Part shown: piece after piece, positions 11,100-61,698 of the stretch | Position numbering within the stretch: position 1 is the stretch's first letter | Layout: each line of letters starts with the position of its first letter | Assembly: GCA_011051655.1 (NCBI GenBank) | Contig: DRKS01000103.1 | Span: 1 to 64,000, forward strand | From: Sedimenticola sp. | Lineage (GTDB): Bacteria > Pseudomonadota > Gammaproteobacteria > Chromatiales > Chromatiaceae | Length of the DNA: 64,000 nucleotides | Direction of reading: 5' to 3' | Notes under the pieces: generated by a model | Told to the model about the DNA's origin: nothing | Databases searched by the model: none | What the model saw: the letters and a program-made list of their open reading frames with translations, nothing else | Made by a program: the position numbers and the translations under genes

Positions 11100-11147
11100 C
11101 GGTGTGGGGTATCACTGTCAACCGTCAACTGTAAACTGTAAACTAAA
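11091..11147. repeat. Heptad repeat array with hairpin at the nth 3' end
   Basis: GACGGTTGAC (11091-11100) and GTCAACCGTC (11117-11126) form a perfect 10-bp inverted repeat, partly extended inward by GGTG/CACT. From 11117 the units run in 7-bp phase: GTCAACC, GTCAACT, GTAAACT, GTAAACT. The nth stop codon is inside the left arm. The unit sequence matches the arms of the array at 40351-40741. Confidence 0.8.
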
Positions 11148-21715: not shown

Positions 21716-22542
21716 ATGGCCACCATCCGCATCCTGAGCCTGCTTCTGGCGATCAGCCTGATCCCCGCCTGTTCCCTGCTGCCCAAGGCGGCGGCGGACA
21801 AGCCCGAGAACTGGAGCGCGGCCAAGTTCTACGCCGAGGCCTCCAAGGCCATGAAGGACGGGGATTATGAAAAGGCCATCGAGTACTACGAGAAGCTGGA
21901 GGCCCGCTATCCCTTCGGCCGTTACGCCACCCAGTCCCAGCTGGACGTGGCCTACGTCTACTACAAGTACGACGAGCCGGACTCCGCCATCGCCGCCCTC
22001 GACCGCTTTATCAAACTGCACCCCCGCAACCCCCACGTGGACTACGCCTATTACCTCAAGGGCATCGTGAACTTCAACCGCAGCCTGGGGTTTATCGAAC
22101 GCTTCATGCCCACCGACATATCCCAGCGCGACGCCGGGGCGGCCATGGACTCCTTCGATGATTTCTCCGAGCTGGTGCGCAAGTTCCCGGACAGCAAATA
22201 CGCCGAAGACGCCCGCAAGCGCCTCATCTACCTGCGCAACAATCTCGCCCGGCACGAGATCCATGTGGCGCGCTATTACCTGGACCGCGGCGCCTATGTG
22301 GCCGCCGCAAACCGTTGCGTGTACGTGGTGGAAAACTATCAGCGCACCCCGGCGGTGCGGGATGCGCTGAAGATCATGATCGAGGCCTATGACAAGCTGG
22401 GCCTGGATGAACTATCGGCGGACGCGAAACGCGTGCTGGCCCTGAATGAAGCCAAAGGCAGCTTCGACTATCTGAAGGGGGACGGACACGACAAGCCCCT
22501 GGGCGAAAAGGTCTGGGAGTTCCTGGAACTGGATAAGAATTA

Positions 22543-22543
<1 letters not shown>
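21716..22543 (+). CDS. bamD: Outer membrane protein assembly factor BamD
   Basis: Essential lipoprotein of the BAM complex, which inserts beta-barrel proteins into the outer membrane. From the ATG at 21716 the product is 275 residues with a normal lipoprotein signal (ILSLLLAISLIPAC, Cys at residue 19). TPR-like repeats follow: NWSAAKFYAEASKAMKDGDY, YEKLEARYPFGRYATQSQLD, FIKLHPRNPHVDYAYYLKG and LVRKFPDSKYAEDARKR. An in-frame ATG at 21680 sits 5 nt after a TATAAT (21669-21674) and would put an odd 12-residue extension before the signal peptide, so it was rejected. The TAG stop is the first part of a heptad array shared with glnB. Confidence 0.93.
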
Positions 22544-23050
<507 letters not shown>

Positions 23051-33172: not shown

Positions 33173-33253
33173 CCCAAGATCCAAGGCGGGTATGAGATAC
33201 CTTGTCCGGGGCCCCATGCCTTGAACCTTGCGCCTTGAACCTTTAACCTCGCC
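33173..33253. repeat. Heptad repeat array between pilD and coaE
   Basis: Five in-phase units stand directly before the coaE start: CCTTGAA, CCTTGCG, CCTTGAA, CCTTTAA, CCTCGCC (33219-33253). On the left, CCAAG units read in the opposite sense (CCCAAGATCCAAGG, 33173-33186), and GGTAT-GAG-ATACC forms a small hairpin. The design, inverted units around a centre, matches the other arrays, although the unit differs. Confidence 0.75.
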
Positions 33254-35957: not shown

Positions 35958-36116
35958 TTAGTTGTTGGTTTTCAGTGATCAGTTGTCAGTTATCAGTTAT
36001 CAGTTATCAGTTTTCAGTGGTCAGTGGTCAGAGTGCAACTGACAATGCTAAACACTCCCCCTGACCACTGAAAACTGAAAACTGATAACTGATAACTGAT
36101 AACTGACCACCCGACT
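35958..36116. repeat. Heptad repeat palindrome between argJ and the Nudix gene
   Basis: Left arm: about eleven 7-bp units from 35958, mainly TCAGTTA, TCAGTTT and TCAGTGG (35972-36034 are nine strict TCAG units). Right arm: CTGACCA, CTGAAAA x2, CTGATAA x3, CTGACCA (36061-36109), the reverse complements. The arms pair over more than 30 bases and the centre adds GAGTG/CACTC (36031-36035 and 36052-36056). The array fills the 164-bp gap from the argJ stop to near the Nudix start. Confidence 0.95.
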
Positions 36117-40350: not shown

Positions 40351-40747
40351 GTTTACAGTTTACGGTTAACCCGCATTTCTCACCAGGCGGACCCAGTTAA
40401 TTGAGAAATTTATGAAATTCAATGTACTTAGCCTCATAAGGTGATGGCGGTTAATTTATACTCTGTCCTATTTGGTTTTTGGAACAATCTGGCTTCGCAT
40501 CTTGAACGATCAACCTTGAAGCATAGCTACAGCTATGCTTCGGCGGCCGATCGTCCAACCTGCTTCGCCAGCTTGCCCCAAAAATCCAAATCCTGGTGAG
40601 AAATGCGGGTTAACGGTTGACAGTTAAAAAAACAGTAAGCCAATAAATGGGCAGCATTCAGATGCCGGGATTGAATATGGTTCAGGAAGGCGCCAAATAA
40701 ATTTGGGTCAAGTTGAAAAACCGTCAACCGTAAACTGTAAACGCCTG
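40351..40747. repeat. Heptad repeat array upstream of secA, split by a MITE
   Basis: Left arm GTTTACA, GTTTACG, G-TTAA (40351-40369) continues after the inserted element as CG, GTTGACA, GTTAAAA (40614-40629). The right arm is CCGTCAA, CCGTAAA, CTGTAAA (40721-40741), the reverse complement. Between them, about 90 bp (40630-40720) has no recognised feature. Units are the same as in the array after nth (11117-11144). The whole 40249-40748 gap between secA and the M23 gene is accounted for by this array and the element. Confidence 0.85.
40370..40609. mobile_element. MITE-like element (240 bp) flanked by TTAA duplication
   Basis: Perfect 18-bp terminal inverted repeats, CCCGCATTTCTCACCAGG (40370-40387) and CCTGGTGAGAAATGCGGG (40592-40609), flanked by TTAA on both sides (40366-40369, 40610-40613). 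The right half is itself an imperfect long hairpin centred on the perfect 11-bp stem GAAGCATAGCT/AGCTATGCTTC (40518-40541). There is no transposase ORF. TTAA duplication with CC-starting ends suggests mobilisation by an IS1380/piggyBac-like transposase; that family assignment is inference. Confidence 0.88.
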
Positions 40748-40748
40748 T

Positions 40749-41681
40749 TTATTTGCTGGCGCGGAGGTACTTCCAGGGATTCACGGGCCTGCCGTTGTTC
40801 AGCACCTCGAAATGGACGTGCGGCCCGGTAGAGCGCCCGGTAGAGCCCATGGTGGCAATAACCTGACCCTTGGCGACCCGCTCCCCCACCTTCACCAGCA
40901 GTTTGCCGTTATGGCCGTAACGGGTGGAATAGCCATTGCCGTGGTTGATCTCCACCATTTTGCCATAGCCGTAGCGCTTGCCCGACCAGGCAACCACGCC
41001 GGCCGCCACTGAGATCACGTCCGCGCCCTTGCGACCCGCGAAATCAACCCCCTGGTGAAAGGCCCTCTTGCCCGTAAAGGGATCCTTGCGGTAACCGAAA
41101 CGGGAAGAGATCCAGCCCTTTTTCACCGGCCGGCCGGTTGGATGGACATCCTGTTGCAGCCTGCGGTTCATGATCAGCTCTTCCATGAAATCGAGCTTGT
41201 GCTCCCGGTCATCGATGGTCCGCGACAGCGCCTGCAGATCGGACAACAACTCCGAGAGTTCCACCGATTCGGCAGAGTCCGAGGCGTCCAGGCCACCCAC
41301 CGCGGGAGGCGTGGAAAAATCGAACTCCCCCTGGTCCAGCAGGCCGATCTTGGCCAGGCGTTCACCCAGCGCATCCAGGCGCATGATATGGGATTGCATC
41401 TGCCCCAGCCGCAGCGCCAGCGCATCCAGATGCTCGCGGGTCTGCTCCCGGACCTCCCGGATAGTCCGCCGCTGATCATCCAGCGCCGCCTGCAGGACGA
41501 GATCCACCGGCTCCACCGCCGACGCCGTCTTTGCATGATCGAGGCCCAGCCTGTAGCCGGCCCAGCCCATGCCGCCGGAGACGCCGGCCAGCAACAGCAA
41601 CAGCATCGTCACCACCAGCCCCACGCTGACTTTTATGCTGCCGGTCTTATTGTGAAACCCGGTAAAGAGTATGATATTCAT
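40749..41681 (-). CDS. M23-family peptidoglycan metalloendopeptidase, membrane-anchored
   Basis: Envelope protein with an N-terminal membrane anchor (VSVGLVVTMLLLLLAGVSGG), a coiled-coil stretch (about residues 60-165) and a C-terminal LytM/M23 domain. The zinc ligands are intact: HQGVDFAGRKG (H-x3-D) and GPHVHFEV (H-x-H). It should therefore be catalytic, unlike degenerate EnvC/NlpD-type activators. The 310-residue form starts at the ATG at 41681; an upstream ATG at 41753 would cross into dciA. This gene type commonly sits between dciA and secA in gammaproteobacteria. Confidence 0.9.
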   Translation of the reverse strand: MNIILFTGFHNKTGSIKVSVGLVVTMLLLLLAGVSGGMGWAGYRLGLDHAKTASAVEPVDLVLQAALDDQRRTIREVREQTREHLDALALRLGQMQSHIMRLDALGERLAKIGLLDQGEFDFSTPPAVGGLDASDSAESVELSELLSDLQALSRTIDDREHKLDFMEELIMNRRLQQDVHPTGRPVKKGWISSRFGYRKDPFTGKRAFHQGVDFAGRKGADVISVAAGVVAWSGKRYGYGKMVEINHGNGYSTRYGHNGKLLVKVGERVAKGQVIATMGSTGRSTGPHVHFEVLNNGRPVNPWKYLRASK

Positions 41682-41717
41682 AAAAGCGCCTGCACCTACA
41701 ATCAACCCGGCTGAATC

Positions 41718-42152
41718 ATGATCAAACCCCGGCCCGCCAGCAGCTTCCTGCACACCGCTGCCGTACTGCGGGAATTACAAGCACATCTCCATGATCAGGA
41801 GCGGCTGCTGATGCTGGTCCGGTCCCTGCTGCCCCAGCCCCTGGACCTGCACTGCCTTTCGGCCCAACGCAGGGAGGGCAGACTCATCCTCCACGCCGGC
41901 TCCTCGGCCTGGGCAAGCCGTTTACGTTATTTCTCCCGGGATCTCCGTATCAAGCTGCGGGACAAAGGGGTCCCGGTTCAGAAAATCGAAGTGCGCGTCC
42001 TGATCGGCAACCCGCGAAAAACGCCCCCGCCGCGCCGCGCCAGGACCCTTTCCAGCGACAACGCCGAACTGATCGGGGCCGTCGCCGAGGGCATCGGGGA
42101 TCCGGATCTGCGCGCCGCCCTGCAACGCCTGAGCAGGCACGGCCGCACCTGA
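41718..42152 (+). CDS. dciA: DciA-family (DUF721) replicative helicase loader
   Basis: DciA assists loading of DnaB helicase in bacteria that lack DnaC/DnaI loaders. The 144-residue protein has the DUF721 core: LRELQAHLHDQERLLMLVRSLLPQPLDLHC then ILHAGSSAWASRLRYFSRDLRIKL, with the S-x-W-A motif. The C-terminal tail is basic and disordered. Divergent from the M23 gene across 36 bp and convergent on lpxC (12 bp). Location next to lpxC-secA is typical. Confidence 0.88.
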   Translation: MIKPRPASSFLHTAAVLRELQAHLHDQERLLMLVRSLLPQPLDLHCLSAQRREGRLILHAGSSAWASRLRYFSRDLRIKLRDKGVPVQKIEVRVLIGNPRKTPPPRRARTLSSDNAELIGAVAEGIGDPDLRAALQRLSRHGRT

Positions 42153-61168: not shown

Positions 61169-61338
61169 GGAAATACGAGGGAAACTTCCTTTAAAGACAG
61201 AGACTTAGAACATACAGCCCGACCGGGGATCTGGCACAAATAAGGCACGCGAAAACATGATGATAAAGAGCATACTTAAAGCGATCTCTCAGGAGAAAAC
61301 TGGTGACGGGGGAGGTCTGGGCGACGGGAATAAAAAAT

Positions 61339-61698
61339 GAGAGCCGGCCTGTAAGCCGGGTTCTGTCAAAGGATGGTCATTCATCTGGGATGCGCGTCGC
61401 CGCGCACCTCTAGCAACCTACCCAGGGACCGTGCGGGCCACACGCTGCGGCCGAAGCCGCCCGCCCCTCTATTTGGTCTTGCTCCAGGCGGGGTTTACCC
61501 TGCCGCCGGTGTTGCCACCGGCGCGGTGCGCTCTTACCGCACCATTTCACCCTTACCGGCCCCGAAGGGCTTAGGCGGTATCTTTTCTGTGGCACTTTCC
61601 GTAGGCTCGCGCCCCCCAGGCGTTACCTGGCGCCTTGCCCTGTGGAGCCCGGACTTTCCTCCGCCCCCCAAGGGGCGGCGACCATCCGGCCGACTCTC
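61339..61698 (-). ncRNA. rnpB: RNase P RNA (type A)
   Basis: Catalytic RNA that matures tRNA 5' ends. On the minus strand it starts GAGAGTCGGCCGGATGGTCG and continues with GGAGGAAAGTCCGGGCTCC, the CR-I core. The 3' part has ACAGAACCCGGCTTACAGGC followed by CGGCTCTC, which pairs with the 5' end to close P1. The length of about 360 nt fits bacterial type A. The P1 3' strand is followed by ATTTTTTATT, a U-run that can end the transcript. Confidence 0.96.

Follow-up and report, generated by a model that had tools for sequence, protein, structure and literature searches.

Correia, ERIC and REP sequences are structured bacterial MITEs or intergenic repeats, and the interior of a MITE is usually regarded as filler between the end sequences. 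The element described here resembles these families in being short, multicopy, intergenic, foldable and bounded by inverted ends; it differs in that a single predicted fold with compensatory changes spans two phyla and several end sequences. With IS1380 (NCBIfam NF033539, Pfam PF13701) it shares the first 15 bp of its ends and 4-bp flanks of the CTAG/TTAA kind, but it has no transposase gene, and its hairpin interior is absent from the IS1380 loci searched. IS1380-like transposases have been paired with those of piggyBac (PMC5718144) and serve as the outgroup in piggyBac trees (PMC10813416). Likeness to piggyBac itself extends to a preference for TTAA and to this pairing of transposase groups; the differences are a target of YTAR, mostly CTAG in other genomes, flanks that are often unequal, and the fact that this is no eukaryotic element.

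The element is a 240-bp MITE at positions 40370–40609 of the window, the 64,000-nt stretch of Sedimenticola sp. DNA that was analysed, and its hairpin-first strand is the minus strand. Its terminal inverted repeats, CCCGCATTTCTCACCAGG, match exactly (left, 40370–40387, plus strand; right, 40592–40609, minus strand) and are flanked by TTAA at 40366–40369 and at 40610–40613. Within the window, this 18-mer occurs at just these two places when up to 3 mismatches are allowed, against a chance expectation of 0.12. No open reading frame of 80 aa or more inside the element appears in the ORF list, and a transposase gene is lacking. Read on the minus strand, the interior comprises a conserved long hairpin (40462–40593, matched by model R1 at 86.5 bits) with an apical stem-loop at 40518–40541, followed by a tail (40388–40461) that leads from the hairpin to the end. 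The element lies between two minus-strand genes, which we take to be secA (37429 to about 40248) and an M23-type peptidase gene (40749–41753). It is short, has inverted ends, lacks a transposase gene, exists in many copies and sits between two TTAA copies, the target site duplication; positions 40370–40609 are a non-autonomous element, arranged as an insertion into a TTAA of a pre-existing heptad array would be. The original prediction had given these coordinates, the perfect 18-bp ends and the TTAA flanks exactly as found here, and the perfect ends would fit the recent insertion that it proposed.

The interrupted array reads GTTTACA GTTTACG GTTAA on the left (40351–40369, plus strand) and TTAACG GTTGACA GTTAAAA on the right (40610–40629, plus strand), where the first TTAA is the duplicate. 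When the MITE and one TTAA are removed, the flanks join as GTTTACA-GTTTACG-GTTAACG-GTTGACA-GTTAAAA, five heptads in phase, in which 22 of 28 positions match at lag 7; the predicted empty-site sequence is CGTTTACAGTTTACGGTTAACGGTTGACAG. An uninterrupted, inverted sister arm of the array is found 90 bp away on the minus strand (40719–40743), and its reverse complement is identical to the excised array at 24 of 25 bases, with a local score of 22 against the array without the MITE and 18 with the MITE in place. The single difference, GTTGACG in the sister arm against GTTAACG in the array, is the change that creates TTAA. No genome of the same genus was present among the relatives searched, and the sister arm serves as an internal substitute for that empty site. 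That the heptad phase is coincidental, with no insertion at 40370–40609, is highly improbable: the array is admittedly short and imperfect at lag 7, yet the sister arm reproduces the excised sequence almost completely and the same element occurs at dozens of other places. The restored phase and the sister arm support the view that the array is older than the element. A second copy (L014) adjoins similar heptad sequence, which is what one would expect were GTTAAC heptads a source of TTAA sites.

Of the periods from 4 to 15, strongly periodic regions in the window were seen for 7 and for 14, twice that length, and for no other. Arrays of 7-bp units are located at 11114–11144, 22540–22694, 33219–33249, 35960–36106 and 40351–40743; three of them consist of two inverted arms, and the heptamer differs from place to place. 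TAACTGA heptamer repeats are known from Beggiatoaceae (PMC4679880). The intergenic array at 35968–36018 has the same heptamer, reverse-complemented and rotated; unlike the Beggiatoaceae repeats, several of the window arrays are two-armed and inverted, with a heptamer that varies by place.

The Sedimenticola genome (3.12 Mb in 103 contigs) contains 79 exact 18-mer ends, and its complete copies measure 158, 174, 240, 241 and 312 bp, the 158-bp form comprising the ends and the hairpin without the tail. Many contigs of this assembly start or stop within the element, so the repeat has evidently fragmented the assembly, and complete copies are undercounted. The 4-mer that adjoins 83 exact 15-bp ends on their outer side is TTAA in 55 cases, CTAA in 12, CTAG in 11, TTAG in 4 and GTAG in 1, and on these counts the target is YTAR, with a preference for TTAA in this genome. 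Strict TTAA targeting, as originally proposed, does not hold for one third of these ends, nor for other genomes, where CTAG predominates.

Among 146 complete copies across genomes, the two flanking 4-mers are identical in 73, CTAG/CTAG being the commonest pair overall. The mismatches are poorly explained by a simple duplication that later decayed: the flanks differ at a rate of 0.22 per base, compared with 0.05 for one end against the other in these copies, although the automatic search probably misplaced some copy boundaries, and flanks are unequal in 28 of 64 copies with perfect ends. Where the innermost and outermost bases disagree, the consensus is the innermost base 52 times and the outermost base 8 times. 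A pure 2-bp TA duplication was considered and rejected, as it fits 27 of the 73 mismatched flanks but not the differences at middle bases. In piggyBac, a 4-nt overhang is taken into the target (PMC7351741), and carry-over of a similar overhang could be a source of the mixed flanks, which we regard as a lead and not a result. The family does not keep to the strict TTAA target of piggyBac-type elements, inserting instead at YTAR, and the bearing of its unequal flanks on piggyBac-type seamless excision without DNA synthesis is only suggestive.

Fragments matching PF13701 are found at contig ends of the Sedimenticola genome, and those of C43 and C14 begin with TTAA or CTAG followed by CCCGCATTTCTCACC; the middle of this insertion sequence is unassembled, and IS1380 is seen in the genome as fragments. 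A full-length relative in a Planctomycetota MAG (L214) has CTAG and CCCGCATTTCTCACC and encodes a 480-aa protein that matches the IS1380 model NF033539 (E = 1e-119), while another full-length relative, from a gammaproteobacterium (L213), carries the variant end CCTGGATTTCTCACC and is flanked by CTAG at each side. Over their first 15 bp, the MITE ends are identical (15/15) to those of L214 and of the fragments in its own genome. The guess of an IS1380-type transposase is strengthened by this common end, which supports movement of the MITE in trans by an IS1380-family transposase that would recognise the inverted ends. Mobilisation by a different transposase family has in its favour that several genomes with dozens to hundreds of ends (e.g., G038, G039, G045 and G162) contain no clear IS1380 transposase at the PF13701 cut-off. 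It is nonetheless improbable, given that IS1380 elements, both in this genome and in the Planctomycetota MAG, share the 15-bp end and the type of flank, and that the weak transposase hits in G162, tried as candidate partners, were rejected because they have no matching ends. The complete G162 genome (2.96 Mb) contains 352 ends of the CCCGGATATTGCACC type and no clear IS1380 transposase; at two of its loci (L257 and L273), elements stand in tandem with a single CTAG between neighbours.

The exact 18-mer was found in at least 116 stretches of species-representative genomes, assigned to Gammaproteobacteria, Acidobacteria, Alphaproteobacteria, Planctomycetota, Verrucomicrobia and others; many carriers are MAGs, so that some taxon assignments may reflect contamination and the spread across phyla rests largely on such genomes. 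One carrier, Acanthopleuribacter pedis (Acidobacteria), is an isolate; it has the ends and no match to the hairpin. Collections of phage, plasmid and viral sequences gave no match to the element, and no transfer vehicle was seen there. Across genomes, element lengths cluster at 238–243 bp, with a few near 311 bp. Four elements of 311–312 bp from different genomes (L081, L104, L049 and L002) have extra hairpins of about 70 bp within the long hairpin, at differing sites, and at four other loci (L073, L126, L151 and L168) end pairs 35–66 bp long are almost empty inside and have YTAR-like flanks.

Copies from Gammaproteobacteria and Acidobacteria share a common plan in the hairpin-first orientation: an end, a hairpin of about 125 nt, a tail and the other end, and in copies from different genomes the apical stem-loop begins near position 73–75. 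From 22 sequences, RNAalifold predicted 48 pairs, 24 of which have changes on both sides. In an alignment of the hairpin made from sequence only, 94.6% of cells can pair, compared with 69.2% after shuffling; double-change cells number 155 against 56, although the sequences are related, so that the cells cannot be counted as independent events. For covariation, the score is 0.694 against 0.232 for shuffled versions and at most 0.151 for slid ones, over which the structure tested is favoured because it came from the same alignment. Compensatory changes are thus above controls, as in a structured RNA, and covariation of this kind can be mimicked by copying from one arm to the other.

Of 274 genomes of the class, 26 (from 21 families) have a match to model R1, which describes the hairpin without the ends, at an E-value of 1e-5 or below; in the phylum to which Acanthopleuribacter belongs, the model matches in 2 of 149 genomes. 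Two matching ends enclose 103 of 148 R1 matches even though ends are absent from the model; they include CCCGCATTTCTCACC, CCCGCATATTGCACC, CCCGGATATTGCACC, CCCGAATATTTCACC and others, with CTAG or TTAG alongside; fold and ends thus travel together while both stems and ends change. An origin of the hairpin as an IS1380 leftover was rejected, as the IS1380 loci searched gave no R1 match. In the window and 20 carrier loci, no Rfam 15 covariance model gave a credible match overlapping the element; the only Rfam matches of the window are a cobalamin riboswitch (1736–1956) and a bacterial RNase P RNA (61336–61697), both on the minus strand. Searches of papers with the end sequences gave chance matches only, and no matching description was found; the group is widespread and apparently undescribed. 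Reading the locus as a MITE was correct as far as it went, and what it missed is the interior: comparison shows a predicted fold, common to phyla, with compensated stem changes in many lineages and with end sequences that drift as well.

If the fold forms from one strand, G-U mismatches are expected to be tolerated above A-C mismatches on that strand. The arms were aligned with scoring blind to pair type, and mismatches were counted if matched on each side. Among elements found by their ends alone, the hairpin-first strand has 46 isolated G-U mismatches against 13 A-C; clustering at 97% identity leaves 14 G-U and 4 A-C clusters (p = 0.03), and clustering at 92% leaves 10 and 4 (p = 0.18). With model hits included, 40 clusters have G-U against 5 with A-C, but model hits could be biased towards G-U. 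Over all mismatches without restriction, the totals are nearly equal (117 G-U against 103 A-C), since chance pairs from internal loops enter the count; counting was confined to isolated mismatches after these totals had been seen. The evidence is moderate, and the G-U excess on one strand points to single-strand folding, of RNA or of one DNA strand alike.

An ordinary palindromic MITE, whose arms copy each other during replication, would also produce pairing without selection. Template-switch copying between hairpin arms is a known mutational process, MITEs are commonly palindromic, and this hairpin is very long and nearly palindromic. Under such copying the arms should become more and more perfect. 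Instead, mismatches inside the hairpin turn up again at similar positions, the overall length and the location of the apex are conserved, and a one-strand G-U excess would be unexpected; we consider this explanation unlikely. Quite unlikely, too, is a fold that works as single-stranded DNA, with the hairpin recognised on one strand, as it is in certain other elements, and aiding transposition or replication. Strand-specific tolerance of G-U (as G-T) would suit one DNA strand equally, and the fold does travel with the ends across lineages; relatives of IS1380 such as piggyBac, however, move double-stranded DNA (PMC7351741), and the IS1380 loci searched did not yield the hairpin. Copies are mainly intergenic (68 of 88 located), and 12 are spanned by an ORF call. 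Orientation relative to genes was tried as a sign of function in mRNA and rejected, with no clear sense preference among copies.

The preferred reading joins a non-autonomous element, an IS1380 mobiliser and a selected single-strand fold, and we assign it, as a whole, a probability of about 0.7, a figure that does not cover any benefit of the fold. An IS1380-family transposase would bind the inverted ends and move the MITE in trans, here into TTAA of an older heptad array. The fold would act as a single strand, most likely as RNA read hairpin-first when nearby transcription crosses the element, and our guess at the likeliest benefit is that intergenic copies become tolerable, or of use, through a stable RNA structure. 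Counted against this reading are the 158-bp copies, mobile in spite of having no tail, and a small number of single copies without most of the hairpin, both of which imply that the fold may not be needed for movement; so are the want of a clear sense preference, the end-rich genomes with no clear IS1380 transposase and the many carriers that are MAGs. A broader claim is made only tentatively, namely that these elements could be mobile structured RNAs of a class not described before, each a hairpin of some 125 nt between IS1380-type ends in Gammaproteobacteria and Acidobacteria, with about 170 copies in one complete genome (from end counts), in which selection would act on the folded single strand rather than on the sequence or the ends.

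What would ordinarily count as filler appears here to be the part whose design is best conserved, a hairpin that compensatory changes have maintained in two phyla and between differing ends, and whether selection sees the folded strand of a mobile element becomes testable. The unequal 4-mers in half of the copies, with the innermost base tracking the element, may trace a piggyBac-like insertion step in bacteria.
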